Source: Scylla paramamosain (lineage: Eukaryota > Arthropoda > Malacostraca > Decapoda > Portunidae). Taken from it: a stretch of DNA of 64,000 nucleotides. Positions 35,494 to 64,000 of this stretch are shown piece after piece (position 1 is the stretch's first letter; each line of letters begins with the position of its first letter). A program made the position numbers and the translations under genes. The DNA is taken from the NCBI RefSeq assembly GCF_035594125.1, contig NC_087151.1:23419079-23483078 (forward strand), in the 5' to 3' direction. The notes under the pieces are model-generated. The model was not told where the DNA came from. It did no database searches and saw nothing but the letters and a program-made list of their open reading frames with translations.

Positions 35494-38120
35494 CTAGGCG
35501 GAAGACATATGACTCTCATTAAAGATGGGGAGAAGCTGCACCAGAAATTGTCGAGTAGCTCTCCCACCCCAGAGGGTCATCAGTTTTGCAAAATATGTTT
35601 CAGCTCAGTTCCCAAGTCTGTCAGTTTGAGCGATTACGAGTGCCATTGCGACTTCACTCAAACTTTTCTTTTTCCAGGTGATGCTGAAAAAGTAAAATTC
35701 AAAAACTTTGCCTACACCTATCAGCCTGCCTACTTAGCATTTTTTTTATATTTTGAAACTATGATAAAACCTAAGGAGAATAGGAGTGTGATAGCTGTAC
35801 ATGAGCCAATTGGATACTCGTATCTCATCAACAATAGGCATGGAGATGCCGTGGTAAAGAGAAGTTATTTCGGCGAAGATCCCGTGAATAATTTCATTGA
35901 TAGTCTATCCGAAGCTTGCCGAATCATTAAGGAAAGTGTAGTTAGCTATCCAATTAGCATGTCTGCAGAGGATGAAGTCCACTTCTAACGTCAGCGCCAC
36001 TGCGAACTCTGCCGTCAACCCTTTAATGTGAAAACCCCACCTTATAAACATCACGACCACTCATTACCACAAAATAATTACAAGGGGGCATTGTGCGCAC
36101 GATGCAACCTCCAGTGTCGTGACATGAGGAAATATCTCATTTCTCTGGCGCATAATATGAGCTTTGACGTCTCCTTAATCATAAAAGACCTTCAGTTGCC
36201 AGAGTCACACGTGGACATCCTTGCCAAGTCAGAATCGCATTTATTGAAAGTAAGGATTAAGGAATTGCAGTTTCAGGACATGCTTTCCATTATGAATGCC
36301 GGCCTCAGTCATCTCGCTCAGAGTCACATGCAGGCGGGCTATGACACGCGTTACGCCCAGGAGATACTGAATTACCTCCCCGAGGATGTAAGACGTGTAA
36401 TTTGGACTCAAAAACAGTTTCTTTGTTATGAGTACATCACTGACTTTGCCCGCTTATAAGATCAGCAATTGCCACCCCGCGAAGCATTTTATGACACGCT
36501 CAAGGAAAAGGCTCTGTCACCTGGAGAATATGAACACGCTGAAAGCGTGTGGAGTATGGCATCCTGTCACACTTTAGGTGATTACATAAAACTGTATTGT
36601 GAGATTGATGTGGGGTTATTAGCCGACACATATCTCAAATATAGATCATACCTGCATGAATTTTATGGACTGAACGTGGCACATTATGTGTCACTGTCTT
36701 CTTATGCTTATGACGCTTTTTTTAAAGTCGACAGGCGTTCAATTTGATCCGCCTTACGATCCTAACATGTATCACCTGATCAAAAGAAATGTACGAGGAG
36801 GCTTTGTAACTTGTGTCAGACCACACCTGCAGTCAAACCACGAACCCAACGGTGGACCCGGCACCTATGTGTTCTATCTGGACTATATTTCATTATATGC
36901 AACCGTTATGTGTTCTCCCCTGCCTATGGGCAACATCAAAAAACTTTCTCAGTCAGAGATGGATGATTTTTTTGAAGTTGGCATCCAGAATCACGCGACA
37001 GATGGTGACATCGGTTACTGGCTGCATTTTGACGCCTGCGATGTTTCCCCCGACGTGGCCCGGGTCATGTACGAGTTCTCTCTGTGCCTCGCACACATGA
37101 CTATTACAGAAGATGACATCTTGCCATCCAGTAAAAGACTGTTAGAAGCTGAGGATCTTAAGCTGGAGAGGAAAAATCGTAAACTCGTGGCAAGTCATAA
37201 AGGGCTGAAAGATCATCTCATCAGTCTGGAATTGCTGCAACTTTTACTCTCACTTGGACTGCAAAATATAATGTGTCCATGCTATATATAGCTTTAGACA
37301 GGCTCCATACCTGAAACCTTTCATAGAAAGGAACGTTACTCAGCATAAAAATGAGACGTGCACCATTAAAAATCGCATTTGCAAACTGATGTCAAACGCA
37401 GTTTATGGCAGATCCATGTTATCTGAAGTGAAGTATGGTCTCTAACAGAAATTAGTGACAAAAAGAAAGTCTCTCCTGAAGTATGCAAGAAATCCATCCT
37501 TTAAAAGGGTACACCAATTAGGCGAGGACCAAGTCATATACGTCAACAGTAAGAATACGATTAAAATCAGTCCGCCAAATTACTTGGGACACCATATATT
37601 AGAAGTGGCAAAGAAGTACATATACAACATTTGGTATCGTGTCATCAAAGCCAATTATGGTGAGAGAGTTAAATTAGCTTGTGAAGATACTGACAGTTTC
37701 ATATTCAGTCTACACATACCTACAAACTTAAATGATAAACTGAAACATGGACCCATGACAAATTTTCTTGACACCAGTAACTTTACTTCAGATCACATGT
37801 GTTTTAATGGGGAGCGGAAGGGTCAACTAGGCTTGCTGAAATCTAAAACAGGATCCACGCTCATCAAAGAGGCAATCATATTAAAACCAAAGATGTATTC
37901 GCTGCTGTTGGAAGATGACAAGCAAGTATCTCGAGGTAAAGGCATTCCAACTCACCATCAGCAAAATATATTGCATCAGCAGTATAGGGAAACACTTAAT
38001 AATGTCGCATGTGGGATGATGAATTGCTATAATATCAGGAATGTGAAAGGGTAAATTTGTACCACTCACATGCGAAAGCGTACATTGTCACATTTTGACG
38101 ACAAACGCTTTCACGTATAA
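35494..38120 (+). pseudogene. polB: Protein-primed family-B DNA polymerase of Polinton (broken)
   Basis: A PolB replicating the element by protein priming. Visible in order: a Cys/His cluster (FCKICF...CHC, about 35580-35660), the exonuclease I region reading LYFETM where families have DFE (the Asp is lost), motif A as LDYISLYATVM (Asp codon near 36881), motif B as KLMSNAVYGRS (37385-37415) and motif C as EDTDSF (37683-37700). The N-terminus is cut off by the satellite junction at 35493. Damage: in-frame UAA at 35986, 36457, about 37444 and 38052; frameshifts near 36720 (in a T7 run) and 37240-37300. It ends near 38117 or, in another frame, runs into the GAG-repeat acidic stretch. Confidence 0.88.
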
Positions 38121-38681: not shown

Positions 38682-38728
38682 TACTGTAAACATATCGAAG
38701 CTTCTTTTAGTGACCCTCTGAACTTAAC

Positions 38729-39383
38729 ATGGACAAGAAATTTAGCAAAAAGATGCTGATTCTCTTCAGATATCCTACACGCATAATTATCGAAGGTTAT
38801 ACAAATTCCGGCAAAACACACCTCTGCAATAAAATTATAGAGAAATATCAGCATGGATTTAACAGAATTATTTGTGGCGTCTCATTGCATTCGCTGAAGC
38901 AGAATTCTCCTTTTCAAGATAAGGTCAAAGTGCATGAGAAAATTATTGATCCCGTGATGGATGATGACAATCCATATGCCGATCCGCAAACGCACACGCT
39001 TTTGATATTAGATGACAATTTCCTCATGGCTGGCAATTCTCAAACGATAGCAGAGGCCTTTACCAAAGGGAGACATAAAAATTTGTCAGTTATAATGATA
39101 GCGCAGAATGTCTTTTTCCCCGGAAAGTATGCTAGAACGATAACTTTAAATGCCTCGCATTACATTTTTATGAAAAACAGATATATATCAAATTGAATGG
39201 CTGGGCAGGCAACTTTATGGAAAGTAGCACGCCAAACACTTTGTGGAATTTTATAAAAATGTCGTGCTTAGACGAGATCACGGTTATTTGTGGTGCGATT
39301 CATCCCCAAACGTACCCAAAGAAATTCAACTGCGCACAAATATTGTGGATGAGCCGCCCTGTGATAAAGTTTATCTGCTATGA
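38729..39383 (+). pseudogene. A32-like (FtsK/HerA) genome-packaging ATPase (broken)
   Basis: ATP-driven motor that would fill capsids with element DNA. The ORF from ATG 38729 has Walker A GYTNSGKTHL at about residues 23-32 and Walker B LLILDD at about residues 92-97, then a QNVFFPGKYARTITLNASH block typical of Polinton ATPases. The frame is lost near 39183, after MKNR, and the C-terminal part continues in another frame with one UAG to a TGA at 39381-39383. That TGA overlaps the integrase ATG (ATGA). Two AATAAA signals and an intergenic repeat lie upstream. Length without damage would be about 215 residues, normal for the family. Confidence 0.88.
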
Positions 39384-39527
39384 ACGCAGTTTTGGACGAA
39401 ATTTACCGGGATATGACGAATCCTGCGGCTTTAAGAGGTGTGCAAGCCCTCTAAAGAGAGGGGAAGAAAAGCGATAAGAATCTAACACTCCGCGATGTGA
39501 GGGCATTTTGCAGGGTGTCCGCACTTA
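39380..39527 (+). pseudogene. int: Polinton integrase, N-terminal part (interrupted by LINE)
   Basis: Starts at ATG 39380, overlapping the ATPase stop. It shows the N-terminal pattern of Polinton integrases, with LDEIYRDMTNPAALRGVQAL followed after a UAA (39452-39454) by KNLTLRDVRAF. A single-base loss shifts the frame before a VRTYT-like motif at the LINE insertion point, about 39527. The rest of the gene resumes at about 40373. Confidence 0.8.
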
Positions 39528-40372
39528 TACGCCTGACTTCTGATCTTCCTAAAATTTCTGATTGGGGCAGAGCAAACTTGGTATTATTCAATACCTCAAA
39601 AACTCAATTCCTCCATCTATCAACTCGACACAACCTTCCAGACAACTATCCCCTCTTCTTCAATGACAGTCAACTGTCTACCTCTTCTACACTGAACATC
39701 CTCGGTCTGTCCTTTACTTATAATCTGAACTGGAAACTTGACATCTCATCTCTAGCTAAAACAGCTTCTATGAAGTTAGGTGTTCTGAGACGTATCCGCC
39801 AGTTTTTCTCACCCCCCCAGCTGCTAACTCTGTACAAGGGCCTTATCCGTCCATGTATGGAGTATGCTTCACATGTCTGGGGGGGTTCCACTCATACTGC
39901 TCTTCTAGACAGGATGGAATCAAAAGCTTTTCGTCTCATCAACTCCTCTCCTCTAACTGACTGTCTTCAGCCCCTCTCTCACCGCCGCAATGTTGCATAT
40001 CTAGCTGTCTTCTACCGCTATTTTCATGCCAACTGCTCTTCTGATCTTGGTAACTGCATGCCTCCCCTCCTTCCACGGCCTCGCTGCACAAGACTTTCTT
40101 CTTTCTCTCACCCCTATTCTGTCTACCTCTCTAACGCAAGAGTTAACCAGTATTCTCAATCATTCAACCCTTTCTCTGGTAAACTCTGGAACTCCCTGCC
40201 TGTTTCTGTATTTCCACCTTCCTATGACTTGAATTCCTTCAAGAGAGAGGTTTCAAGACACTTATCCACCAATTTTTGACTACTGCTTTGACACTTTTAT
40301 GGCACTGGCATTTCAGTAGGCATTTTTTTGATTAGATTTTTGTTGCCCTTGGCCAGTATCCTTCCTAAGAAA
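39528..40372 (+). mobile_element. Jockey-like LINE 3' fragment (copy 5) inserted in Polinton integrase
   Basis: 5'-truncated LINE in plus orientation. Its codon run to the stop at 40277-40279 is uninterrupted (about 250 residues) and gives the RT thumb and C-terminal domain: SDLPKISDWGRANLVLF, then MEYASHVWGGSTHTALLDR, then FYRYFHANCSSDLGN. It ends with the family 3' phrase and a short A run at 40369-40376. As the only open fragment it is probably the youngest LINE copy here. The apparent ORF start at 39497 is chimeric, its first residues coming from integrase. No clear target-site duplication found. Confidence 0.88.
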
Positions 40373-41238
40373 AAAAATGCAATGAAAAATTCTCGCTCCT
40401 AAACCGTCCTTCATTTTAACTTGTGATTTGGCAGATTTTACAAAGCTGCACAGACACAGTGGCGGCATTCGATACATCATGTTTTGCCTGGACGTTTCCA
40501 GCAGGTACTTGAAAATAGCAACGCTGACAAGTAAATCTGGACGCAGTAGCCTGCAAGCGCTGAAAAATATTTTAGAGTCGGGAAGTTTTACAGGCGTGTC
40601 GCGTCTTTTTTACCGATCAGGGATCCGAATTTTATAATCAAGCAGTGAAAAAATATCTAACTTTGAAAGGTATTACCTTGTATTCTAATTACTCGCGCGA
40701 GACAAAGGCAAGTTTGGCAGAAAGGGTCATCCGAACCATAAAGGCGAAAATAAATAAATATCTCACACATAACAATACACTGATGTATATTAACGTCTTG
40801 CCCACCCTAATAAACACGTACAATCACACCCCACACCGCGGTTTGGATGATAACCAAACACCGGCCCAGGTTCACCACCTCCACCACCTGTCACCACCAC
40901 CTGGGAGACATTGTACACTTACAACCTGCTTCCCGAACGCAATTTAAATTCAATAAGGGTTATACCGTCAACAATATTGAGGAGGTTTTTAAGATAAGTC
41001 ATGTGGATTACTCACATAAATCCCTATTTATTACATAAGGGATTTGGTAGGTGAGGACATGACTGGTGCATTCTTCAAGGAAGAATTAATCAAGTCCTCT
41101 CTTCCGACACATTACCAGGTCGATATATTACGATCAAAGGTCGAGCGAGGTAAAAGAAAGTATTTCGTCCATTGGCGTGGATATCCAGATAAATTTGACA
41201 TTTGGATAGATGCGGACAACTTAGTAAGATATGAATGA
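40373..41238 (+). pseudogene. int: Polinton integrase, catalytic core and chromodomain (broken)
   Basis: Retroviral-type DDE integrase that would insert the element into host DNA. First acidic block as CDLADFTKLHRHSGGIRYIM near 40425-40480. The second reads in a shifted frame near 40615 (a TDQGSEF-type block), and the Glu is in LAERVIRTIKAKINKY near 40715. After another frameshift near 40880 come an SH3-like strand region (GDIVHL) and a C-terminal chromodomain at about 41107-41238 (YQVDILRSK, then YFVHWRGYPDKFDIWIDADNLV) with the aromatic-cage-type Tyr/Trp positions. The chromodomain would bind methylated histone to guide integration. Stops near 41038-41090 separate core and chromodomain frames. 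Confidence 0.88.
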
Positions 41239-41302
41239 GGAAAAAACATTGATATAGAAGTACAAGGATTTTGTTTTCCTCCTCTCTCACACCTCCCCTA
41301 AA

Positions 41303-41569
41303 TTGCAGAAGCAGGTCTTGGAGAGTTTGAATAAGCACGAAGTCATTTGCATCTTGGAAATATTCGCAAACTTTTTTAAGAAACGCCTGACGGACGATGA
41401 TTCCATCATTAACCGCCTGAAAAAATTCAAGAGTGATATTTGCACTATAGCCTTGAAGAAGACGCTCGTGTACAAGAAAAAAAGCCATTCTAATCTCCAA
41501 ACGAGGTGGCAGCATATTGGCTGCGTTACTCCCGATAGCCGTGTCGGCAATAACAAGTTTACTACAGAG
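41303..41569 (+). CDS. Small basic protein of Polinton, unknown function
   Basis: Open frame with no ATG; it starts after a pyrimidine-rich stretch ending AATTGCAG at 41301-41308. It encodes a helical, Lys/Arg-rich chain (LESLNKHEVICILEIF, then RLKKFKSDICTIALKKTLVYKKK). The layout of a Leu-rich helix followed by a Lys-rich hook resembles small ORFs found next to integrase in other Polintons, which are suspected core or capsid-associated proteins. That is inference from memory of the layout, not a motif match. The frame reads on into the next gene (to 41623), so the true end is unclear and a frameshift is likely. Confidence 0.45.
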
Positions 41570-42087
41570 ATGAAGGAATATTATTTAGTTCCCATCTTAG
41601 TTGCCGAGAGGTGTAAATTTTAACTGGCCGACGTTGCAACTCCGCACCGATTCACGTCAAAACAATTCAAGAAAAAAAAAAAGCTTCACCTCTGCCGCCG
41701 GCCACCGCTACCACTGTCGCCTCCACTGTGGCACTGCTGTCACGTGCGCCTGTCAATACGCCCTTGGATGATTTAATTCGAGTTGCTGTTCCACCTTCCT
41801 TTAGAGAATACGGTTTATCTCTCTTGAAATTATTGGAGGATTAACCTGGGATTTCATGGGATGATCATGGTAACTTACTTCTGCCATTTTCGGGGATAAG
41901 CATGTTTGATCTCATACGAGTACTTGGCAACAGAAAGGGGAACGTGAAAAGAATTTCAGCCGATGAGCGTCCATTATTATCAATGCTACTTCACTTGGCG
42001 CAACTCCCTGCGGGCGCCATCAGAAATACAGCTCAACGAAGTAAACTGATAGGCGGCGGGATCGGCCACATCTGGGAAGCATATTAA
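41570..42087 (+). pseudogene. Conserved Polinton protein with PGISWDD block (broken)
   Basis: The start is probably ATG 41570 (MKEYYLVPILVAER), in frame with the preceding ORF. After a frameshift the C-terminal part reads in one frame to the stop at 42085-42087. It holds an Ala/Pro-rich linker, VPPSFREYGLSLLKLLED, a UAA at about 41842, then PGISWDDHGNLLLPF and SMFDLIRVLGNRKGNVKR. The 'SWDD.G' plus 'DLI..' arrangement recurs in proteins of other Polinton/adintovirus elements whose role is unknown. Location between integrase and capsid genes suits a virion component. Confidence 0.5.
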
Positions 42088-42381: not shown

Positions 42382-43048
42382 ATGCCACATTTCCCCCTCA
42401 CTCCCCTCACAGAGGGTTTGACGTGTGGATCTACCCTCCAATTAGTCGTCAAGATGAAGGTGGTCGAGGGTAGGCTGACCGACAGCGCGTTCCATGATTG
42501 TCGCTGTTATATTGCTTACACATTAAATGCGGTCTCCACCGCATTGTGTGGGATTGCGCGGGACCTCAAAACGATTTATCCATACGAGAATACGCATGCA
42601 GCTAGAAAGAGACTATTCGCTTCATTGGGCCACAACGGACACGAGAGATGAACCAAGATGTATCATTATCCACTTGCCTCCCACAGGAAGCGTAAATCTC
42701 CCTCACCTGGTGGCCTGCGTGACTCAGTATGGTTGGGGTGAGGCCGTTGAGGGTAACGAGAAGGTGCAACAGGCAATTGCGACATCGAAGGATTTGCTTT
42801 ACGTGGAAGGACTCAAGATGGATACAAGCATGAACTGACGTCAACACTTCCAGAATTGCCTGAAAAAGATTGCCTTGCTAACCATGGCGAACACTGAAGT
42901 GGAGCAGATTATCATCCCAGAAGGAATGGGGTGCAGAGGTCGCTGCCAGGGTGAGTGGACGAATAATTACCTGCCTACGGTGGAAGGGCTGGCGAAGCGA
43001 TTTCAACCTTTTGGAGTTGAAACTATTCTCGTGAGCAAGTCTGAATAA
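42382..43048 (+). pseudogene. Macro-domain (ADP-ribose-binding/hydrolase type) protein (broken)
   Basis: Starts at ATG 42382. The N-terminal half reads CRCYIAYTLNAVSTALCGIAR, matching the first ligand loop of macro domains (GxGIA-type), then DLKTIYPYENTHAARK. After a frameshift near 42640 it continues as PTGSVNLPHLVACVTQYGWG, then DTSMN, a UGA at 42836-42838, RQHFQNCLKKIA, EQIIIPEGMGCRG (second glycine loop, GCG-type but altered), and EWTNNYLPTVEGLAKRF to the stop at 43046-43048. The order follows the macro-domain family that binds or removes ADP-ribose. A poly(A) signal AATAAA follows. Such a gene is not part of the standard Polinton core, so I treat it as cargo, perhaps countering host ADP-ribosylation (inference). 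Confidence 0.68.
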
Positions 43049-43070
43049 ACTATATCATGTAAAATTTTGA

Positions 43071-43076
43071 AATAAA
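43071..43076 (+). terminator. Poly(A) signal AATAAA after macro gene
   Basis: AATAAA 23 bp after the macro-domain stop; another AATAAA overlaps the stop at 43044-43049. Confidence 0.55.
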
Positions 43077-43149: not shown

Positions 43150-43641
43150 ATGGCGGGAGCAGAGCATTATCTGTATTTGACGAGTCTGGGCAACTCCGAG
43201 CTCTACCCCCATAACCAGCCCCATCGCTTTGAAAATAGAATCACTCCCCTCATCCATCTTGATCCAAATAAGGAATATGAAGTAGGTCTGATAAACTGCT
43301 TTTATCCAAAACAGTTCTTGGGTCTAGTGGCGGGTGATTATACTTGCAGGATTGATATTTGGGCCATAACCCACACCGATGAAACACGCATGTATAAACT
43401 CCATACATACACACCTCGAACGAGCATGGAGGTGGGCGATACTGGGTATATGGTTGACGTCATTAATATCGAATTGGCCGCAGAAATAAAAATTATGCGT
43501 ACTGTGACACCCGAAGCACTCCAAATGGGAAAAGGTTTATTAACAGATGTTTTAGAGGGGAAACAACTTCGCAAATCATTAAGAAATAGAGGCGTCGCCG
43601 CCGTGAATTGTGTGGGTGAAAGGATAGTTCGAGGTGGATGA
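43150..43641 (+). CDS. Penton-like minor capsid protein, N-terminal region, apparently fused to another ORF tail
   Basis: ATG at 43150 behind a TATA box. The first ~105 residues match the N-terminus of Polinton minor capsid proteins (single jelly roll, fivefold vertices): EHYLYLTSLGNSELYPHNQP, then NRITPLIHLD, KEYEVGLINCFYPKQF and DYTCRIDIWAI. From about residue 125 the chain changes character (KGLLTDVLEGKQLRKSLRNRG, then GERIVRGG), like the small basic virion proteins of these elements. At 164 residues it is much shorter than a complete penton (about 250-350), so I infer an internal deletion that fused two ORFs in frame. No stop codon inside. Confidence 0.65.
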   Translation: MAGAEHYLYLTSLGNSELYPHNQPHRFENRITPLIHLDPNKEYEVGLINCFYPKQFLGLVAGDYTCRIDIWAITHTDETRMYKLHTYTPRTSMEVGDTGYMVDVINIELAAEIKIMRTVTPEALQMGKGLLTDVLEGKQLRKSLRNRGVAAVNCVGERIVRGG

Positions 43642-43751: not shown

Positions 43752-43799
43752 CTTAGTCGCGAAGATGACTCATTACAGGCTGGATGTGCAGGGTGGAGC

Positions 43800-45108
43800 G
43801 ACCTCCACCCCCTGAGCAATTATCTGACGGCTGTGAGTGAGAACTTCCCGCAGGTGAATCGCCTGCATACCATTGAATCGTCAGTCGCTGGGAGACGAAA
43901 GTCGGACGCATTACCCGTTAATTTAGACGCTAATGCTAATAATCATGCGGGGATTAACGACCCTTACATTGAATTTAGACTGCCTGGCATTCCAGGACAA
44001 TTTTTGGATCTATCAACACGGTCTCTAGAATTGCGAGTTAGCATAGCAAAGGCAGATGGCGTGCCACTAGACGACGACGATCACATCGCTTTTAGTAATG
44101 GCTTGAATAATACGATGTTTAAGTCTTGCACTTGTTGTTTGAACGAACAGCTTGTGGAGTCATCCTCTTTGTTCAACTATCACGCCTTCATTAAAATAAT
44201 TACAACAATCCCTCAGGATAAAATTATTATTAGATTATGGTGGATCAAAAGGCACAATCAATAAATTTGATGAAGACTCTTTCACGGGGGGGGGGATAAA
44301 GATGAGAAACAAATGATAAAAGATTGTAAAACGCACGACCTTTCAATGACTTCGCCTTTGTTTTCGAATATATCAAGTCTGGACGCTTACCTGCTTGACT
44401 CTGTCGATGTGAGAATTCAATTAGAATTGGCTAACAAAATATGGATTCTTAATTCACACCAAGACGCCAGCAGTTTCAAATTTAAGCTCGAGATGGTTAA
44501 GTTATGGGTTGACCACATCACGCTGCATCCACCCGCCTTAGAATCGTTAAATAACTCCTTGACTCTAAATCCAATGCAATACACTTTCAATAGGACACTC
44601 AGTAAGACGTATGTGTGAAACGCCAATCAAACATCTTTGATTGCCGAATTGCCTTATGCGCAAATTATACCTCAAAATTTGACCATGGCAATAGTTGATA
44701 TAGACAGCTTACAAGGCATAATTGATAAGAACGGTTTATAGTTTTCATCACGCTGATCTGTCACATGTACATATCACTGTGAATGGGGAGACCATTTATA
44801 TCGTTCGCAGCTCTTTCCTGCATCACGCGTCAAAATTATTTTACACGACCCTTGAGTCACTAGGATTGGACACGCGTAATTCCCTAGCATTTGATGCTTT
44901 CAATAAAAGTCGGACAGTATGTTTCCTTAACTTTGTGACAGAGGACGTGCACAATGCCATCCCTCTAGATAAATTAGGGAATCTAAGAATTAATCTGTCT
45001 TTTGCTAAGGAACGTAATCATAAACGCATCATCATGTTTTTCGCCGACACTACCGGTGTCATAGAAATTGATCATTATCGTCACGTTCACTGCATTGTCC
45101 ACGCATAA
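43800..45108 (+). pseudogene. mcp: Double-jelly-roll major capsid protein (broken)
   Basis: Builds the icosahedral shell as trimers. Jelly-roll 1: HPLSNYL near the start (about 43807), then YIEFRLPGIPGQFLDLSTRSLEL, KADGVPLDDDD and LNEQLVESSSLFNYHAFIK. After damage at 44220-44310 (including a G10 run) comes the middle section: DAYLLDSVDVRIQLELANKIW, then KLWVDHITLHPPALESLNNSL. A UGA at 44617-44619 and a frameshift near 44740 follow, then jelly-roll 2: FLHHASKLFYTTLESLGLD, TVCFLNFVTEDVHNAIPLDKL and RIIMFFADTTGVIEID to the stop at 45106-45108. The start codon is uncertain. Total of about 430 codons, in the family range. Confidence 0.88.
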
Positions 45109-45114
45109 GCTGTC

Positions 45115-45687
45115 ATGAATGCACGTGAAATACAAGCCGGTCTAGCAGGCATCTTGGGCAGTTGAGTTTATTTTTTAGGCTGTCACAACCAACACCGTGT
45201 GACAGAGCTGATAAATCTTGCCAGAAAACAGGAGAAGCCATGCGTTTTCATTCTAAATACATTGAGTGACTCGAAGACCATGGGCCACTGGATTACTGTT
45301 TATCTTAATTTTCAAAGTCAGACCATAGGCTATTACGATACCTGTAACATACATCCCAAATACAATTCTGCCGTCTTACATCATTTCATGCAAACTTGTC
45401 CACATATGAAAATTAGCATATTAAATTATCGACTTCAGGGGTTGAATTCCCTCGTGTGCGGCATTTATTGCATGTTCTTTTGCCTTATACTGAGTTGGCA
45501 TACATTAAAACGTGCAATGTGCATTATTCACACCATCTTCAAAAATCATCAATATCTATATAATGACAAAAAAATTACTCGTATGTCTTACGTAATATTT
45601 CGTAAAATGCCACATTGGATGCCTACGTTTTGCCCGGCCGGCAACCGAGCGAGATATCATAATATCTGTAAAGTGGTAATAAGGTAG
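45115..45687 (+). pseudogene. Adenovirus-type (C5) cysteine protease, one premature stop
   Basis: Maturation protease that would cleave capsid proteins. The frame from ATG 45115 to the stop at 45685-45687 (190 codons) is broken only by UGA at codon 17 (45163-45165). Catalytic residues are visible in order: His in TMGHWITVYLNF, Asp in IGYYDTC, the conserved Gln in NYRLQGLNS, and Cys in LVCGIYCMFF. The rest is C-terminal helix and Cys/His-rich end. It follows the major capsid gene by 6 bp, a spacing that implies tight packing or a shared transcript. Confidence 0.88.
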
Positions 45688-46559: not shown

Positions 46560-47435
46560 ACTCTGCATAACCTTTCTAATAATAATGATGATGATAATAA
46601 TAATAATGATAATAATAATAATAAGGTGACCGTCCGTCATAAGTACTACGTCGGCGAAATCGCCCACACCACGGGCGGTCAGTGAAAGTGAAGGTGACAG
46701 CCGCCGTCCTCGCCGTCACAGATGCTTCGTCCAAGGTAAAGGGATCGCAGGTAACGAAACCACGTGGGTAGTCACGACGACCTTGGCCATCTGGAAGAGG
46801 CAGGACATTGGAATGTACTGAGATGTCAGAGGGAACACGTGATGGCAAGACTCGCCACCCAGGCCGTCCAGGACCCGCGTGTGCGACTAGTGCATGGCAG
46901 TTGCGTGGTGGCGTTGCCAACCACTTTCCTGACGCATTCAGACCTCCCCCACCCTCTTCCCTTCCGTCAACTTTGACCATTGAGTGGTGGAGACATTGGA
47001 ATGTACTGAGATATCGGAGGGAACATGTGATGGCAAGACTCAAACCACTCTGGCTGTCTAGGATCCACGCGAGGGAAAGGGAGGCCTCCATGGCAATGTC
47101 GTCAGAGTCTCCCAGACCACGCCTGTGATGGCGATCCTAACGTGTAGCTGTCAGTGATCCCAGCCGCCTGCCGTGCCTGATGCGTTCAGTCCCCCCACCC
47201 CTTTCCCATTCAATTATTTCCCACCCACCATCATTGATTGATTTAGTCACTCCATAGCCGCTGAAGGATAAGGACACACGCCCCCACTTCTCCCGTCAGT
47301 GCCGCCATCGCCTTCCCGCCCCCCCGCCCCTTAACATGGGCCCTGGTGACGTCGTCGTGAATGGTCCGCTCCTCTTCCCCGGGTTAATTTACAGCCAGGG
47401 TCGCAATTCTGAAATTGATTGCCACTGAGGCCTCC
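46560..47435. repeat. Right subterminal region with imperfect direct repeats
   Basis: GC-richer than its surroundings and non-coding. The block ggaatgtactgagatgtcag...catgatggcaagactc-like at about 46810-46855 recurs at 46998-47042. A later shared block (acgcattcagacctccccca-like) occurs at 46938 and about 47181. This gives two units of about 190 and 240 bp. A (TAA/TGA)n patch is at 46578-46622. No TIR partner exists at the truncated left end. Confidence 0.65.
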
Positions 47436-47550
47436 GGAAAACTGTCATGGGAGTCGCCCATCGTAATTTGGCATTGCCATGGGAGTCCCCATTCCATTGG
47501 GACTCCCATGGCATGCCAATTTAGGATGGGCAACTCCCATGGCAATTTCC
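47436..47550. repeat. Imperfect inverted repeat (hairpin) at right edge of Polinton
   Basis: Arms 47436-47491 and 47495-47550 pair with a few mismatches. Each arm contains catgggagt twice and a cccatc(g/c)taa-ttggca block. Satellite begins about 10 bp beyond the right arm. Confidence 0.8.
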
Positions 47551-48815
47551 CTACTACTTACTTTTTAGCGTTTTGTTACATAAGAAGCTCAAAAACACAA
47601 AACACCCAAAAATACACATTTTTTGTATTGTTCTTTTGTATCCCAGTATAGGGTGCTTTCTATGTAATTTAACGTTTTTGGTGCCTAAAACACTAAAAAC
47701 AGATGAAGTGCTATATACATATGAAGTGCTATTCACGCATTTTTAGCATTTTGTTACCTGAGAATGTCAAAAACACTTTTAATCCACGTTTCCGGTAATA
47801 TTACTTTGTTTCACCATATAAGGTTCTTTAAATGCATGTTTTTGTACCTAACAAACTAAAAAACACTGGAAATGCATACTTTTGGTAATGTTATTTTGTT
47901 TCTACAGAAGGGGTGTTTTCTATGCATTTAAGTGTTTTGGTACATACAAAACTGAAAAAAAACACTCCAAAGACACGCTTTTCTTTATGTTTTTGTGTCC
48001 AATATTGAGTGCTTTCCATGTATTTTAGCATTTTGGTGCCTAATAGGTTAATAAAGACTCAAAAGACATGTTTCAGGTATTGTCATTTTGTTTCCCCATA
48101 TAGAATGCTTTGCATACATTTTGTTGCTTTGGTAAATAACAATGTGAAAAACACTCAAAATAAACGTTTTTCGTAATGTTGTTTTCTTCCTTCATATAAA
48201 GTGCTATTGACGCATTTTAGACTTTTTGTACTTAAGAAGCTCAAAAAACTCACAATACATGTTCCTCATCATGTTCTTTCATTTCCCCATATAGAGTGTT
48301 TTGCATTCATTTTGGCGTTTTGGTACATAACAATGTAAAAAAACCCTCAAAACAGACGTTTTTGGCAATGTTGTTCTGTTTCTCCATATAAAGTGTTTTC
48401 ACGTGTTACCTAAGATGTTAAAAAACACACGTTTCTTGCTACATCGTTTCCTTTTCAATATAGGATACTTTACATGCATTTTATCGTATTTTTTACGTAA
48501 GGAGCTCAAAACACTGAACATACACATTTTTTTTTTTTTTGTAAAGTTATTCTGTTTCTTCTTAATGGGTGTTTTGCATGCGTGTTAGAGTTTTGGTACA
48601 TAAGAGCTCAAAAAATTAAAAAGGCACGGTTTTTGGTAATTTTTTGTCTTCCAATATGCAATGCTTTCCATCATGTTAGTGTTCTGATGCCTAAAACGCA
48701 GTAAATCAGTGAAAAAAGCACCTTTCAGTTAATTTTGTTTCCATTGTCTATAAAAAGAGCTTTGCATGCATTATGGTATTTTGGTACCTAACACTAAAAA
48801 AACACTCAAAACACA

Positions 48816-49037
<222 letters not shown>

Positions 49038-49330
49038 GTTCAGTTCCCACATATAGAGTGCTATTCACGCGTTTTTGCGTTTAGTTACTTAAGGTCAATA
49101 ACACTCATAAAACACGTTTGTGGCAATCAATATTTGTTTTACCAAATAGGGCACTATGCATACAGTTTGCTGTTATTGTACCTAACATGAGTGCTTTCAT
49201 GGATTTTGGCGTATTGGTAGCTAAGAATGTTAAAAGCAATCAAAATATACTTTTTTGGTGATGTTCTATTTCTCCTTAAAGAGTGCTTCTTCACTCGTTT
49301 TGGCGATTTGGTAACCAAGAAGATGAAAAA

Positions 49331-49476
<146 letters not shown>

Positions 49477-49629
49477 CTGTATAGTATGCGTTCCATGATT
49501 TTTTTCAGCGTTTTGACGCCTAGCACGCTCATAAATACTAAAAAGACACTTTTCTGTAAATCTCGTTTCCTTTCCCCCATATAGGGTGCTTTGCATGCAT
49601 TTTGACGTTTTGGTACCTAAGAAACTGAA

Positions 49630-49695
49630 ATATATAATATAGTATATAATATATATTATATAATATAGTAGATAATATTATATATAATATATAAT
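49630..49695. repeat. Imperfect TATAATATA repeat
   Basis: Short ATATAATATA-type repetitive patch in the satellite, self-complementary. Confidence 0.8.
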
Positions 49696-52600
49696 GATGT
49701 TATATTTATCCATATAGAGTGCTATTCATGCGTTTTAGCGTTTTAATACCAAAGAATCTCAAAAACACTCAAAATTATTGTTTTTGGTAATGTTATTTTT
49801 TTTTTTTCATAACGTGTGTTTTGCATTTATCCTAGCGTTTTAATACTTAAGTAGGTCAAAGACATAGAAAAGACACGTTTTTTTGTAAAGTTCTTTTATT
49901 CCTATATAGGGTACTTTCCATGCGTTTTAGCGTTTCGGTACCTAACACGCTCATAAATACCCAAGACACTTATCTGGAAATGTCGTTTCTTTTCCCTATA
50001 TAGGGTACTCTGCATTAATTTTTTGCGTTTTCGTACCTAGCAATGTGAAATAATCTGAAAATACACATTTTTGGTAACGTTATTTTTCTTTTCTTTTTCT
50101 GTTTCTCCATATAGAGTGCTATTCATGCGTTTTAGGAAATTGGTACCTAAGAACCTCAAAAAAAAACATATTACACTTCTATTTACGACTTTTTATTTCC
50201 GTATAGGGTATTTTCATGCATGCATTTTGGGATTTTTCTACGTACCAAGTAAAAAAAAAACTCTAAATTTTTGTTTCTGGTAATATTACTTGTCTTCTCC
50301 ATATAAAAAAAAAAAAAGGTGTTTTTGTTCACTTTCTCTCTGAAGTTTTTTTTTTGGGGGGGCATCCGTTTACCGTTTTCGAACGTAGGAAGCTGAAAAA
50401 AATACAAAAATTTAAAAAACGAGTCTTTTACACGTTTTTTTCTTTTTCCCATATAAAGTGCTTTCCTTGCTTTTTTTTTTTTTTTAGCGTTTTGGTTCCT
50501 AACACATTATAAACACTTAAAAGCTATGTTTCTGGAAATGTCGTTTGCATTTTAGGCGTTATGTTACCATTCAATACATTCAAGATGCAAAATCTTGTAT
50601 CTTAAAATACATTCAAGATACAAAGTTTTTGTATTTTTGTTATGTATTTCAATATAGAGTGATCTTATTGGGTTTTAGCTGTTTCGGTAACTAAGAAGCT
50701 CAAAAACACTCATAATACACGTTTCTCAATTTAATTTACTTTTCCCATGTAGGATATTTTCCATACATTTTGGTGTCTTTTTTCATAGCAAGCTCAAAAA
50801 CCCTCAAAATATTTGTTTTGATAATTTGATTCTGTTTCTCAATGTAGGGTGTTTTGATGTGTTTTTTTTTTTGGTACGCAAGAAGCTAAAAACAATCAAA
50901 AACACTCGCTTTTGGTAATTTTGTGTTTATTTCCCATATAGGGTGCTTTCCATGCCTATTTTGCGTTTTGGTGCCTAACATGCACAAAAACACTGAAAAC
51001 ATATGTTTTTTTGGAATGTCGTTTCGTTTCTCCATAAAGGAGGTTTTTTTTTTTTTTTATGCAATTTGCCGTTTTGATACCTAACAATGTGAGGAAAACT
51101 CAAAGTACAAGTTTTTGCTATTTTTTTTTTCTCCATACCACGTCCTATTCATGCGTATGAACGTTTTGGTATCTAAGAAACTCAAAGATACTTAAAATAC
51201 ACACCTCTGGCAAAGTCCTTTCTTTTGCATATATATAGTATTTTTTTTTTTTTTATGCATTTTGGCGTTTTTGTATGTAACAAGCTCAAAAACACTTAAA
51301 AGACTTGTTTTTGATAATGTTAATCTGTTTTTCCACAAAGGGTGTTTTGCATGCGTTTTAGCGTTTTGGTAAGCAAGAAATTGAAAAACACTCAAAACAC
51401 TCAAATGTAATGTTGTTTTGTTTTCCCATATAAGGAGCTTTCCTTGCTTCTGATCGTTTCGTGCCTTACACGCTCATAAACACTAAAAAGATTTTTTTTA
51501 TTTTTCTTATTTCGTTTCCTTACCCCATATAAGGTGGTTCGCATGGATTTTGCGTTTTGGAATTTAATAATGTGAAAAACAGTCAAAATACAGGTTTTCG
51601 GTAATGTTCTGTCTTTCCACATATAGTGCTATTGATGCGTTTTTAAGTTTTAGTACCTAATATATGGTGCTTCCTATGTATTTTAGCCTTTGGGGCGTAA
51701 AAAAAAAAATAATTAATTAATTAAATTAAAAGACACTTTTCTGGTAAAGTAGTTTCGCTTCGCCATATGCTTTTTGGCGTTTTGGTACCTAACATTGTGA
51801 AAATACTCGAAATACAAATTTTTGGTAATGTTCTTCACTACATATAGAATGCTATTCGTACCCTTTAAAGTTTTGGTACCTAAGAAGCTCAAATACACTT
51901 AAAATGCTCAATTCTCGTAATGTCTTTTCGTTTCCCCATATTGGGTACCTTCCATGCATTTTTTCGTTTTTGTACGAAAGAAGCTGAAAACACTCATAAT
52001 ACTTGTTTTTGATAAGGTTATTATCTTTCTCCTTAAAGTATGTTTTTTGCAAGAATGTTAGCATTTTAGTAAGGAAGTAGGTCAAAAAACGCGTTTTGTA
52101 AATTTCTTTGTTTCCCCATATAGAGAGTTTTCCATGCCTTAGAGCGTTTTGGTGCCTAACACGTTTATAAACACTCAAAAGACACATTTCTGGAACTGTC
52201 GTTTTTGTTCGCCATATAAGGTACTTTGCATGCATTTTGGCGTTTTGGTATCAAAACATGTGAAATACGCTGAAAATAAACGTTTTTAATAATATTATTT
52301 TAGTGTTTTGGTACCTAAGAAACTTAAAAACACTCATAATACACGTCTCTGGTAATGTCCTTTCATTTCCCTATATTGCCTGCATTTTGCGTTTTTCTAC
52401 GTTACATGCCAAAAAAAAAAAGAATAAATAAATAAATAAATAAACAAATAAATAAACATTAAAAACACTTGTTTTCGTAATGTTTTAATTTTGTTTTCCG
52501 CCACAGAGTTGATGCACGCGTTGCAGCGTTTGGTTTATTATAAGTTGAATAACGCTGAAATGAAAAGTAATGTTTCGTTTCCTCATATAGTGAGCTTTAC

Positions 52601-55600
52601 ATGGACTAATAATAATAATAATAATGATGTGAAAAAAAAGAGTCAAAATACACGTTTTTGGCAATGTTGTTCTGTTTCTCGATATAGATATGCTAGCCAT
52701 GCGTTTTGGCATTTAGTATCTAGAGGCTCAAGACTCCCATAATACACTATTCTCGTAATGTCTTTTAGTTTCCCCATATATTACTGTTTTGTTTTCCTTT
52801 ATAGGGGGTTTTCCATGCGTTTTGCCTAACACGCTCATAACCAGTCAAAAAGACTCATTTCTGGATATGTCGTTTTTTTTTCCATATTTTTTTTGTTATG
52901 TGGTTGTGTTTCTCCATATAGAGACATGTTAATGCGTTTTAGCGTCTGGGAACCTATAAAGTTGATAAACATTTATAATAAAAGTGTCTCGTAATGACCT
53001 TTCCTTTCCTCATAGGATACTTTACATGAATATAGTTTTTTTTTTTCGTAACAAGTCCTAAAACACTGAGAATACTTCTTTTTGGTAATGTTTTTTTTTT
53101 TTTTTTATTTATAAAGGGTTTTTTTCATGCGTTTTAGAGTTTTGGTACCAAAGCAGCTGAAAATCACTCAAAAGACACGTTTTTGTTAATGCTGTTTTCT
53201 ATTCCCATAAAAGGTGCTTTTAATACTTTTTAGCGCTTTGGTGCCTAGCACACTCATAAACACCCGAGACACGTTTTTGGAAATCTCATTCTCTTTTCCC
53301 ATGGAAGGTGCATTGCATGCAAATACACATTTTTGGCAATATTATTCTGTTTCTCTATATAGAGTGCTATTCATGTGTTTTAACGTTTTGAAACCTAAAA
53401 AAACACAAAAACACTCATAATACACGATTCATGTAATGTCTTTTCTTTTCCGCATTAAGTGTACTTTGCATTCTTTTTGACATTTTTCTACGTAACAAGC
53501 TGAAAAACTAAAAAAAAAAAATCTTGATTTTGGTAACATTATTTTGTTTCTCCATAACATATATTTTTGCATGCATTTAGCATTTTCGAACATAAGAATT
53601 TCTAAAACACTTGATAGACACGTTTTGCGTAATGCCGTTTTATATTCCCATAAAGGGTGATTTCCATGCTTTTTACCGCTTTGGTGTCTAACAATATCGA
53701 GTGTTTTGTATAATTTATAGTGTTTTGATGCCTATTACACTCATAAACACTCAAAAGACACATTTATTCTTTGGAAATCTTGTTTCCTTACCCCATATAT
53801 AATGCTTTGACTGCATTTTGGCGTTTTGGTAATATTATTCTATTTCTCCATATAGAGTGCTATTCATGAGTTTTAGGGTTTTGGTAGTTAAGAAGCTTAA
53901 ATAAACTCATAATACACGTTTTTCGTTTTTTTTTTCTATTCCTCATATAGGGTAGTTTGCAGTATTTTGGCGTATCTGTTCATAACAAGCTCAAAATCAC
54001 TCAATATACTTGTTTTTGTTAGTTATTCTCTTTCCCACATATTTTACATGTGTTTTAGCGTTTTGTTAAGAAAGTAGCTCAAAACACCTGAAAAAAAGTT
54101 TTTGGTAACGTTTTTTTTTTCCAGTATAGAGTGCTTTCCATGCTTTTTAGTGTTTTTGTGTCTAACAAGCTCATAAATACTCAAAAGAAACGTTTCTGTA
54201 AATTTCGTTTTGTTTCCCCATATTTTGGGCTCTACATGCATTTTGCCAATTTGGTACCTAACAATGTGAAAGACTCTCAAAATATACATTTTCGGTAATG
54301 TTCATTCGTATTCCAATATAGGTTGATTTCCATGCTTTTAAGCGTTTTGATAGCTAGAATGCACATAAATTCCCAAAAATCAACTTTCTGGAAATTTCGT
54401 TTCGTTTGCTCATATAGGGGATTTTGCATGCGTTTTTAGCTTTTTGGTACCTAAGAATGTGAGAAAAAAACATTCAAAATACACGTTTTTGGTAATGTTG
54501 TTCTGTTCCTTAACATAGAGGGATATTTAGGCGTTTTCGCGTTTTTTTTTTATCTAAGAATTTTAATAGCACTCATAGATTACGTTTCTGGTAATGTTCT
54601 TCCGTTACCCCATACAGGTTATTTTGCATGCATTTTGTCGTTTTCCTACGTTACAAACTCAGAACACTCAAAATACTTTTTCTATTTTTTTATAAGGGTA
54701 TTTTGCATGCGTTTTATCGTTTTGGTACGGAAGAGCTAAAAAAAAAAACACACAAAAGACAAGTTTCTCGTAATGTAGTTTTGTAGTCCATATAGGGTGA
54801 TTTCCACGCTCTTTAGCGTTTTTGTGCCTAGCACTCATACAAACACTGAAAAGACACGTTTCTGGGAATCTCGTTTCCTTTGCAAATATATCGTTTCGAT
54901 ACATAAATCGTTTATAAACACTCAAAAGAAAGGTTTCTGGAAATTTCCTTTGGTTTCCCATTATGAAGGGCTTTTGCATGCATTTTGACATTTTGGTACA
55001 TAACAATGTGAAATATACTGAAAAACACATTTTTGCTAATGTTCGTTACTTCATACTGTATGGTATTTATGCGTTTTAACGTTTTTTGTGCCTAAGATGC
55101 TTAAAAGCACTCATAATGATTCTCGTAATGTTCTTTCGTTACCCCATATAGAGTATTTTCAATGCATTTTGGCGTTTTGTGCGTGAAAAGCTCAAAAACA
55201 ATGAAAATACTTGATTTTGGTAATGTTATTCTGTTTCTCCATAAAGCGCGTTTTGTTTGCGTTTTAGAGTTTTGGTAGATAAGGATATCAAAAACACTGA
55301 AAAGAGATGCTTTGTTTTCTTTTCCCATATAGAGTGTTTTCTTTTTCTCTTTTTGCATTTTCGTGCCTAACACGCTCATAAACGCTAAGAGACACTTTTT
55401 TTTTGGGGGGGAAAACCTCGTTTCCTTATCCCAGATAGGGTGCTTTGCATGCATTTTGTCGTTTTGGTACCTAACAATGTGAAATATACTCAATATATAC
55501 GTTTTTGTTAATGTTGTTCTGTTTCTTCATATAGAGTGCTATTTATGCGTTTTAGCATTTTGACACCAATGAAGCTCAAAAACGCTCATAATACAAGATT

Positions 55601-58600
55601 CTCGTAATGTCTTTTATTTCCCCATACAGGGCACTTTCCAAGCATTTTGAGGTTTTAGTACATAACAAGTATGAAAACACTCAATATACTTTTTTTTTGT
55701 AATGTTATTGTTTCTCTATTTGTGTGTTTTGCATACGTGTTAGCGTTTTGATACGTAAATAGCTCCAAAAAACACTCAAATAACACATTTTTGGTAATAT
55801 TGTGCTCTTTTCAAATATAGCATATTTTTCATGGGTTTTAAGTTTTTTGTGCCTAACAACCTTACAAACACTCAAAAGGCACGCTACTGTAAATGCCGTT
55901 TTCTTTCATCTTATAGAGTGGTTTGCATGCATATTGGGTTATGGCAACTAAGAAAGTGAAATGCACTCAAAATGCACGTTTTCTGTATTTTTTTTTTTTT
56001 TTTCGTAAGGAATTCTGTTCATGTATTTTAGTGCTTTCGTACCTAATAATAAATATTTCTCGTAATATATATTTTTTTTTTCCGACATGTAAAGTTGTTC
56101 ACATCATTTTGCCTTTTTTTTACGTAACATCCTCAAAAACTCTCAAAATGCTTGTTTTATTGGTAGTTATTCTGCTTTCTATACAGGGTTGCATGCCTTT
56201 TAAGATTTTGTTACGTAAGTAGCTCAAAACACTGAAAAGAGGCGTTTTTAGTAATGTTTTTTTTTTTTCTCCATTTCCCATATAAGGTACTTTCCATGCT
56301 TTTTATCGTTTTCATGCCTAGCACGCTCACAAACATTCAAAAGACACATTTTTTGAAATCTCCTTTCGTTTTCTCATATAGAGAGGTTTGCATGTAGTTT
56401 CGCGTTATGGGAGCTAACAATGTGAAATACACCCAAAATACACATTTTTGGTAATATTGTTCATTTTCTTCATAAAGAGTTTTAGCATCTTTGTACCTAC
56501 GAAGCTCAAAAACACTCATACGACAAGTTCCTTATAATGGCGTTTTGTTTAGTAATATAAGGTATTTTGAATACATTATGGCGATTTTGTACATGATTTA
56601 TTACCTAAGAAACAAAAAAAAAAGAAAAAAAACACTCATAATACACATTCCTCGTAATGTGGTATCGCTTCCCTATATAGGGAACTTTGCATGCATTTTG
56701 GCGTTTTTTTAAGTAACAAGCTCAAAAATACTCAAAATAATTGTTCTTGGTAATATGATTCTTCTTCTCCATATAGAATGTTTTGCCTGCGTTTTAGCGT
56801 TTTGGTACGTAGGTAACCCAAAAACATTGAAAAAGAGACATTTTTGGCAATATCTTTGTTTTCTCATATACGGTGCTTTCCATGTTTTTTTTTTTTTTAT
56901 TGTTTTGATGCCTATCACTCTTATAAACACTAAAAAGACAAGTATCTGGAAATCTTGTTTCCTTTCCAATATAGTGTGCTTTGCTTTGAATTTGGCGTTT
57001 TGGTACCTAACAATGTGAAATACACTCTAAATACATCCTCTTGGTAATATTGTTCTGTTTCTCCATATAGAGTGCTATTTATGCGTTTTAGCGTTTTAGT
57101 ATCTAAGGAGCTCAAGACCACTGATAATACACATTTTTCGAAATTTTTTTTTTCTCCGTCTCCCCATACAGGGTACTTTTTATGTATTTTTTTGCGTTTA
57201 TGTACGCAATGAGCATAAAAAAAAAAATTCAAAATACTTGTTTTTGGTAATGTTATTCTGTTTCTCCATTATAGATGTTTTTGCATGCAACTTTGCGTTT
57301 TGGTGCGTAAGTAACTCAAAAACACTGAAAGGGTTATTGTAGGATCACTAATCCCGTGTTAAATTGCTTATGTTTTGTCCATGCCTTTTAGTGTTTTAGA
57401 ACCTAGCACGCTCATGAATACTAAAAAGACACGTTTATGGAAATCTCGCATCCTTTCCCCCATAAAGGGTGTTTTAAATTCAGTTTGGCGTTTTGGTACC
57501 TACCAAAGTGAAATACAATCAAAATACACATTCTTGTTAAAGTTGTACTGTTTCTCCAAATTGAGTGATATTTATGCGTTTTAGCATTTTGGTGTCCAAG
57601 AAGCTCAAAACCATTGCTAATACACGTTTCTGGTAACTTTTTTTTTACTTTTTCTCGTTTCTCCATAGAGGGTACTTTGCATGCATTTTGGCGTTTGTCT
57701 ACGTAACAAGCTCAAAAAAAAAAATCTAAACTCTTGTTTTTGATAATGTTATTCTGTTTCTACATAAAAGGTGTTTTGCATGTGTTATAGCGTTTTGGTA
57801 TGTAAGTAGGTCAAAAACACTCGAAAGAAACTAACAATGTGAAATACACGTAAAATACATGTTTTGGTAATATTTTTTCTGTTTCTCCAAATGGAGAAAC
57901 ATGCATGCATATGAATGTTTTGGTACCTAATAAGCTCAAAAACACTCGTATTACGCGTTTTTTTTTTTTTTTTTTCGTTTAAGCATTTAAAGTAGTTTGA
58001 AATATTTTGGCCTTTTCTAAGTAACATGCTAAAAAACATTCAAAAAATTGTTTTTGGTATTTATTTTGTTTTCCATAGAGATACATGCGTTTTAGCGTTT
58101 TCTTACGTAAATAACTCAAAACACTGGAAAGAGACGTTTTTAGTAATGTTCTTTTGTTTTCCCATATAGGGTGCTTTCCATGCTTTTTAGCGTTTCGATG
58201 CCTAGCACGCTTGCTAACACTCGAAAGACACGTTTCTGGAAATCTCGTTTTCTTTCTCCATATGGGATGCTTTCTATGCATTATGGCGTTTTGGTATCTA
58301 ACAATGTGAAACACATTCAAAATATACCTTTTTTTTTGTTGTTGCTTCTCCATGAAGAGTGCTATTCATGTTTTTTTAGCGTTTTGGTACCTGAGAAGCT
58401 CAAAAGCTCTCTTAACACAAGTTTCTCTTAATGTCTTCTCCTTTGGCATTTTTCTACGTAACAAGCTCAAAAACACTTCAAATACACGTTTTTAGTAGAA
58501 ATATACTGTTTTTCCATGAAGGGCGTTTTACATACGTTTTAGCGTTTTGATAAGTAGCTCAAAACACTTAAAAGAGACATTTTTGTTGAAGTTATTTTGT

Positions 58601-61538: not shown

Positions 61539-61723
<185 letters not shown>

Positions 61724-62974
61724 TTCGTAATGCCTTTTCGTTATTCCATATGAGACACTTTGCATGAATTTTCGCGTTTTTGTACATATCAATGCTACTA
61801 ACACTCATAACACACGTTTTTAGTAATGTTGTTATGTTTCTACATATAGAGTGTTGTTGAGAATTTTGTTAGCTAAGGTTTAATAATTCATAATACGTGT
61901 GTATTGATAATGCAATATTATTGTAATTAATATTGTTATCTTTCATCATATGAGGTCCATTGCATACATTTTGCTGTTTCTGTACCTAACGATCTGAAAA
62001 ATCATCGTAATACACCTTTTTGGTAATGGTATTCTGTTTCTCCATAATGAGTGTTTTGCATGAATTTTACCCTTTTGATACGTAAGAAGCTTAAAAACAC
62101 ACAAAAGACACCTTTTTTTGTAATGTTGTTTTGTAGGATACTTTCCAAGCATTTTTATTGTTTTGGTGCATAAAACGCTAAAAAGAAAAAAAACACGTTT
62201 CTGGTAATGTCGCTTCTTTTTCCTATATAGAGTGCTTTGCATGCGTTTTGTCAGTTTGGTATCTAACAATGTAAAAAACACTCAAAATACACGTTTTTGG
62301 TAATGTTCTAATTCTTCACATAGAGGGTTATTCAACGCATTCTCGCGTTTTGGTACCTAAGAATCTCAAAAACACTGCTTATACACGTTTCTCGTAATGT
62401 TCTTTCGTTTTCCCATACCGGGTACTTTGCATGCATGTTAGCGTATATGTACGTAATAAGCCCATAAACACCCAAAATACTTGTTTTTGGTAATGTTACT
62501 CTGTGTCTCAATGAAGAGGGTTTTACATCCGTATTAGCGTTTTGGTAGGTAAGTACCTCAAAAACATTGAAAAATAACGTTTTTGATAATGTTTTGTTTT
62601 CCAATATAACGTGCTTTCCATACTTTTTTCGCGTTTTGTTGTCTAACATGCACAAAAATATATATAAGATACGTTTCTTGTAATATCGTTTTATTTCAAC
62701 AGAGAGGGTGTTATGCTTGCATTTTGGCATTTTTTTTTTTTCTAGCTATGTGAAAAACACTAAAAAATACATATTTTTTGTAATGTTGTTCTGTTTCTCC
62801 ACATAGTGCTATTTACACGTTTTAGCGTTTTGGTGCCTAAGAAGCTCAAAAACACTCAAAATACACGTCACTCGTAATGTTCTTTTCTAGCGGTTTCGTA
62901 CGTAACAAGCTCATAAGCACTGAAAATACACGTTTTTGGTAAAGTTATTGTGTCCCTCTATAAAGGGTGTTTTG

Positions 62975-63375
62975 CAAAGCATCCTATAAGGTGTAAGGGT
63001 ACAAGATATCAAAGAAAAAAAAAAACGTATCTTTTGAGTGTTTATGAGCGTGTTGAAATGCTGAAATGATGAAAAAAACATAGAAAACACCCAATATAGG
63101 GGAAAAAATACCAAGAAAGTGTCTTTTTTTTTTTAACGCCTTACATATCAAAATGCTAAAATGCGTGTAAAACGCCCTTTATAAAAAAAAAAAGAATATT
63201 ATTCCTGTTGAGAATGTTACATAGATAAACGCCAAAATGCATAGAAAGTACCTTAGATAGGGCAACGAAAACACATCACGAGAAACGTTTATTTAGAGCT
63301 TTATAGGTATCAAAAGGCTAAAACGCATGAACAACACTCTATAAAAAGAAACAGAACATGACCAAAAAACGTGTT
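62975..63375 (-). repeat. Short inverted satellite patch
   Basis: About 400 bp reading as the minus-orientation satellite (tatcaaaatgctaaaatgcg, then caaaatgcatagaaagtacc) between plus-oriented arrays. The breakpoints are near 62975 (ttttgcaaagcatcctat) and 63375. Confidence 0.75.
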
Positions 63376-64000
63376 CTTTGAATGCATTTCGGCATTTTGG
63401 TATCTAACAAAGTGAAATACTCTTAAATTACACGGTTCTGGTAATGTTCTGTTTTCCTTTTATAATTTTTTTACATATAGAGTGTTACTCATGCGTTTTC
63501 GTGTTTTAGTACCTAAGAAGCTCAAAAACACTCATAATGGACGTTTCTTGTAATGTCTTTTCGGTTCCTCATATAGAAGTACGTTTTTGACGTTTTTGTA
63601 CATAACAAGCTTAAAAAAAAAAAAATACAAAATACCTGTTTTTGGTAATGTTATTGTCTTCCTCTATATAGAGTGATCTGCATGCATTTAAGCGGTTTGG
63701 TAGGTAAGTAGTTCAAAAACACTCAAAATACACTATTTTGGTAATTTTCTTCTTCTTTCCATATTGAGTGTTTTAGATGTTTTTTAGCGTTTTGGTGCCT
63801 TACACGCTTACACTCAAAAGACTCGTTTTTTTTAAATCTAGTTTCCTTTCCCCATAGAGGGTGCTTTGCATGCATTTTTTGCTTTTTAGTACCTAACAAT
63901 GTTAGATACAATCAAAATACACGTGTTTGGTAAAGTGGTTCTGTTTCTCAATATAACATACTATTCCTGCCTTTTAGCGTTTTGTTACATTAGAAGCTCA
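63376..64000 (+). repeat. Satellite array, 5-monomer type, plus orientation, continues past window
   Basis: Same variant order as 47561-62974 resumes (aacaaagtgaaatac, then acctaagaagctcaaaaaca, then acataacaagc). No gene is seen. Confidence 0.82.

Follow-up and report, generated by a model that had tools for sequence, protein, structure and literature searches.

A predicted macro-fold protein gene carried by an amplified Polinton family of Scylla paramamosain

Results

A broken gene of predicted macro fold in a decayed Polinton

The DNA analyzed here, called the window throughout, is a stretch of 64,000 nucleotides from Scylla paramamosain (assembly GCF_035594125.1, contig NC_087151.1, positions 23,419,079 to 23,483,078). 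It contains a decayed Polinton, and between the PGISWDD-type gene and the penton gene of this element lies a broken open reading frame (ORF) whose relatives are predicted to adopt the fold of macro domains, proteins that bind ADP-ribose tags or take them off. A first-pass annotation, made from the letters of the window alone, had read this ORF as a macro domain because of the order of its short sequence blocks, and had placed it in the orientation of its neighbors with a poly(A) signal of its own. The gene and its signal consist of four parts (window positions):

42382..42651, + strand: 5' piece of the macro-fold gene in a first frame, which meets a stop past a frame shift; relatives P0002-P0005
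42605..42838, + strand: middle piece in a second frame, closed by an in-frame stop; contains VACVTQYGWG
42839..43048, + strand: 3' piece with IIIPEGMGC and a Gly/Trp loop; natural stop TAA at 43046-43048
43071..43076, + strand: poly(A) signal AATAAA, at a position conserved among genome copies

The named blocks were found in two frames of the + strand. The CGIAR block is in the frame of 42382-42651, the VACVTQYGWG and DT blocks are in the frame of 42527-42838, and the CL..I helix and IIIPEGMGC follow downstream of the in-frame stop, up to the TAA. Together the pieces match an intact relative of 222 amino acids, P0006, with an E value of about 1e-106; residues 1-80 correspond to window 42382-42621 (78% identity) and residues 76-222 to window 42605-43045 (85% identity). 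Because of this E value and the similar places found in at least 150 parts of the genome (below), the match is far beyond chance.

The copy in the window is dead. Its in-frame stop falls at codon 153 in P0006 numbering, and the same stop is present in eight fetched copies on contig 1 and in copies on contigs 41 and 19 (L023, L033, L036, L041, L042 and L044-L048). AATAAA occurs at window 43044-43049 and at 43071-43076. In 14 of 15 rows examined, which amount to 13 of 14 distinct copies since L009 and L018 are one copy, the distance from the first base of the stop codon to the start of the signal is 23-25 nt; in the remaining row it is 66 nt. The poly(A) signal, the shared strand and both neighboring genes are as first annotated.

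The macro-fold gene has a fixed place in the element

We searched the 1.21-Gb assembly with P0006, and it is within this genome that the question of a constant position was addressed. The search returned at least 150 scored places (of 300 candidates) on 57 contigs, and the match is free of stops at 103 of the 150, some of these matches being partial and the stops counted by eye. The macro gene has the same Polinton neighbors, in unchanged order, in 8/8 loci of 3.7 kb and 14/14 loci of 10 kb, which represent 21 distinct copies (L018 repeats L009), all chosen by presence of the macro gene. Farther out in the 10-kb loci, L019 and L028 have no pX-like or capsid match, L024 has a short capsid match, the capsid gene of L020 is split, L022 has an upstream deletion, and L026 and L027 are rearranged.

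In the converse test, which started from capsid DNA, the macro gene was located upstream in 39 of 40 scored places (203 candidates). These comprise 31 places with a listed same-strand match no more than 4 kb away, the window itself, and seven of the eight others after fetching. One capsid-selected copy, L084, has no macro match within 2.3 kb upstream. Half of the capsid places (20/40) are on contig 1 between 20.5 and 24.3 Mb, at 94-100% identity to the capsid DNA of the window, and the window copy belongs to this group. The macro-fold gene is thus a near-constant component of an amplified Polinton family in this genome. The first-pass annotation had suggested an acquired accessory gene; carriage by the Polinton is borne out more strongly than proposed, and the notion of a stray acquisition is at odds with the 39 capsid-selected copies that have the gene.

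The remaining genes of the window element are as follows:

35989..38054, + strand: broken type-B DNA polymerase (DNA_pol_B_2, E 2e-4, under the Pfam cut-off)
38714..39196, + strand: packaging-type ATPase (Pox_A32, 28.6 bits against a cut-off of 22.8)
40386..41238, + strand: presumed integrase pieces, placed by genome-locus comparison, and chromodomain (Chromo, 32.6 bits against a cut-off of 25.1)
41258..42087, + strand: PGISWDD-type gene, broken, upstream of the macro-fold gene
43150..43494, + strand: N-terminal part of a presumed penton gene, truncated; adjoins the macro gene in 9/14 of the 10-kb loci
43495..43641, + strand: remnant of a small, presumed pX-like gene
43752..45108, + strand: presumed major capsid protein gene, broken into several frames
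45166..45687, + strand: adenain-type protease (Peptidase_C48, E 0.0098, under the cut-off)

The names integrase, penton, pX-like and capsid are assignments that we assume here. The set, with the ATPase and chromodomain above their Pfam cut-offs and the polymerase and protease below, resembles that of a Polinton/Maverick and recurs in other copies; described elements of this kind appear to have the type-B polymerase, A32-type ATPase, chromodomain integrase, protease and capsid genes in common with the window element. In copies L017 and L018 the integrase is a single frame of 371 amino acids and the capsid gene a single open frame of 473 amino acids that spans both halves seen in the window. The PGISWDD gene (L018:3503-4365) consists of two overlapping frames in these otherwise open copies.

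Other features were observed near the element. In other copies about 0.4 kb separates the ATPase from the integrase; in the window, an open frame of 274 amino acids with weak similarity to ALKBH8_N (E 0.023) lies there, at 39455-40279, and we take it to resemble an insertion of a long interspersed nuclear element. On the minus strand, window 1214-3979 has a pair of long open frames, of 547 and 373 amino acids, that by eye are like those of a long terminal repeat retrotransposon. Diverged repeats with a spacing of about 95 nt, in both orientations, flank the Polinton at window 7000-35500 and 47300-64000. The dead Polinton may have been copied together with local repeats on contig 1.

Sequence relatives

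In a large protein collection, the middle piece retrieved one protein, the 5' piece four, and a profile (A3) 20. Ten of these 20 relatives are 197-238 amino acids long and 46-65% identical to P0006, and none of the 20 carries a precomputed Pfam domain. Searched singly, the window pieces had no notable match in Pfam, PHROGs or the PDB (the last for the pieces other than the 5' piece). Viral contigs searched with two macro-gene pieces, A3, a penton piece and a capsid piece contained no relative, nor did phages searched with P0006 or plasmids searched with window DNA. The best stray match, to DUF459 in P0012 (E 3.7e-4, 20.4 bits, cut-off 27.2), was rejected as chance because it is confined to a single member, and partial, weak matches to NifU_N and FGFR were likewise taken for chance.

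Predicted structures have a macro-domain fold

We obtained predicted structures for two family members that are 54% identical. Both models are confident, have a mixed six-stranded sheet with helices, match the macro-domain fold over most of the domain, and share the same best structural matches. The ALC1-like class (TARG1, also known as OARD1, DarG and SCO6735) fills the top rows of both VIA lists, which rank the 1000 chains placed highest by Foldseek, and has the highest Z score to solved structures. Its motif order is the same as in the Polinton family, without profile-level similarity between the two. Macro domains of RNA viruses, such as alphavirus nsP3, have lower Z scores than the ALC1-like class and are parts of polyproteins. 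The Foldseek list from the PDB also included SPX-domain entries and designed serine hydrolases, the latter presumably built on macro scaffolds. Conceivably, the fold match is a modeling artefact and the protein has some other function, as no sequence profile supports the match; we consider this very improbable, given that two members so far apart were both modeled with confidence and agree in their best matches.

The fold searches also returned Poa1p and macro proteins of the Appr-1''-p type, from yeast and phages, at 11-20% identity. A protein of the Poa1p type would act as a small-molecule phosphatase or deacetylase on ADP-ribose derivatives that arise from host RNA or NAD metabolism, with an indirect use to the element. 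The neighborhood includes no metabolic-looking gene, and we think such an activity quite unlikely.

Among viral proteins, A0A401IPE9, a Wsv206-like protein of endogenous nimaviruses, comes first in fold for both models (E 3e-9 and 2e-9; template modeling scores 0.65/0.71 and 0.74/0.73). Wsv059 of white spot syndrome virus ranks sixth for one model (E 3e-6) and second for the other (E 5e-8). Their length (200 and 208 amino acids) is similar to that of the Polinton protein, and identity to it is 17-18% for the Wsv206-like protein and 12-17% for Wsv059, with a root-mean-square deviation of 17.4 for the latter in the first search. Nimaviruses, unlike Polintons, are large DNA viruses. One study reports a macro domain in a Wsv206-like protein (PMC7016691), and another reports independent acquisition of wsv206 in two nimavirus lineages (PMC10871703).

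Conserved residues and a putative active site

Conservation was counted in an alignment of the family (A4), using for each position only the rows with a letter there. N49 (17/17), G57 (18/18), Q116 (18/19) and G118 (19/19) of P0006 are conserved, as are the loop residues G182 and G184 (14/15 each) and G187 (15/15). Additionally, S136, D138, D148, T149 and R153 are found in 18/18 rows each. These five lie within the stretch N126-R154, which stands opposite a gap in phage TARG1-like proteins and, as far as the alignment goes, is a mark of the Polinton family.

In SCO6735, Gln85 occupies the place of TARG1 Lys84 and DarG Lys80, and substitution of Gln85 with alanine abolishes activity, while Asn27 and Gly128 also matter (PMC9411070). 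The Polinton family appears to resemble SCO6735 in having glutamine (Q116) where TARG1 has lysine, and the further features of this type, a supporting asparagine and loop glycines, may be matched by conserved N49 and G182/G184/G187, each pairing being made through a weak alignment. A SCO6735-like hydrolase site in the Polinton protein is therefore plausible from the conserved residues. Alternatively, the protein could be a catalysis-free reader which binds ADP-ribosylated chromatin or proteins, for example to steer integration or to recruit the element to sites of repair; the macro gene is two genes from the chromodomain integrase. The conserved Asn and Gln, which fit a site where the Gln85 change was inactivating, speak against such a reader, and we hold it to be rather unlikely.

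Constraint between lineages and loss of the penton gene

For five intact lineages (L009, L019, L020, L021 and L030) we calculated the ratio of non-synonymous to synonymous change (pN/pS). In the sense frame it is 0.19-0.63, with 9/10 pairs at or below 0.48; in frames -1, +2, +3 and -3 it is 0.54-2.20. We also picked 30 copies by adjacent non-coding DNA, but these diverged too recently for rates to be tested well. Of the macro genes in this sample, 28 are full-length and gap-free, 27 of these without a stop. An earlier rate test, with copies picked by protein identity, was set aside as biased. Comparison of lineages shows the macro gene to be under constraint; the most recent burst does not.

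Using as query the 115-residue part of the penton that remains in the window, we found that 12 distinct copies (L009 to L017, L025, L029 and L030) lack it between the macro and pX-like genes, L010 retaining a remnant of 17 residues, and that nine (L019-L024 and L026-L028) have it. Of the penton-less copies, L025 has a broken macro gene and the other 11 an open one. The near-identical young copies fall among the penton-less ones, and this subfamily seems to have spread recently.

The macro gene could also be an unneeded hitchhiker in a recently amplified element, its intact copies being merely young. Identity among many of the intact copies is about 99%, and pN/pS of the macro gene in the young sample exceeds that of two other element genes (0.52 compared to 0.134 for the integrase and 0.085 for the pX-like gene, from few changes). 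Set against this are the depressed non-synonymous change in nine of the ten diverged pairs, the ten full-length relatives, and the loss of the penton from copies in which the macro gene stayed open. We judge a hitchhiker improbable. It gains slightly in weight, and the ADP-ribose remover described next loses slightly, through the ratios in the young sample and the single pair that shows no depression.

Discussion

The window feature is probably a dead Polinton gene for a single-domain macro-fold protein, ALC1-like in shape, which would remove ADP-ribose added by the host; we put the probability of this reading, which leans on predicted structures, at roughly 0.58. The protein's pocket would bind ADP-ribose, the conserved Gln corresponding to the TARG1 and DarG lysine would act as in SCO6735, and the protein would strip ADP-ribose that host transferases put on the linear DNA or proteins of the element during replication. 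Because penton-less copies keep the macro gene open, the role may be intracellular rather than in the particle.

Several results weigh against this assignment. PF01661, the profile against which the first-pass annotation would have the ORF searched, has no match above its gathering cut-off to the three window pieces, to P0001-P0005 or to ten further relatives, and no profile in Pfam, NCBIfam or PHROGs, whether of a macro family or another, matches the gene and its relatives. The absence of a profile match was among the outcomes that the annotation held to refute a macro domain, whereas the structure prediction that it also called for returned the macro fold. The macro reading is thus supported by predicted fold, not by profile, and the two models were built on shallow alignments of 16 and 12 rows. 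The residue correspondence to TARG1-like proteins is weak, as it depends on an hhalign comparison with eight phage proteins in which the family T-Q pairs with phage T-Q or T-K over nearly the full length at a probability of just 1.5%. The catalytic Lys84/Asp125 pair of TARG1 is absent, with Q116 in 18/19 rows and no Asp conserved at the corresponding position. As to selection, antisense frame -2, which has third positions in common with the sense frame, is also low (0.26-0.98), the L019/L020 pair (0.63) is not below two other frames (0.58 and 0.54), and the macro gene has the higher ratio in the young sample. Lastly, the ATPase, integrase, capsid and protease frames of L017 and L018 are open, and with open capsid and protease frames particle assembly is possible despite loss of the penton.

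More tentatively, Polintons and nimaviruses might share one distinct macro-fold family through gene exchange in crustaceans, with the Polinton protein serving as a standing remover of ADP-ribose from the linear DNA or the replication proteins of the element that is kept by penton-less, possibly intracellular-parasite elements. We regard this as possible, at less than even odds.

Viral counter-action against ADP-ribosylation is mainly described in RNA viruses and phages. Full-text searches, covering mostly papers outside subscription and no supplements, found no paper that pairs Polinton with either 'macro domain' or 'macrodomain', and a wider search had no co-occurrence of Polinton and ADP-ribos among the matches listed. 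Four Polinton/adintovirus papers (PMC8097293, PMC4028283, PMC11071296 and PMC11071308) contain neither 'macro domain' nor ADP-rib in their text, supplements aside. A macro-fold gene that is fixed in a multicopy animal Polinton, and has both intact and broken natural copies in a single genome, offers a means to test two things: whether ADP-ribose is used by animal hosts to tag virus-like DNA elements, and whether the elements in turn remove the tag. The structural similarity to nimavirus proteins also suggests that Polintons and nimaviruses, the latter including the shrimp pathogen white spot syndrome virus, may, as two kinds of DNA virus, draw on a common pool of genes.
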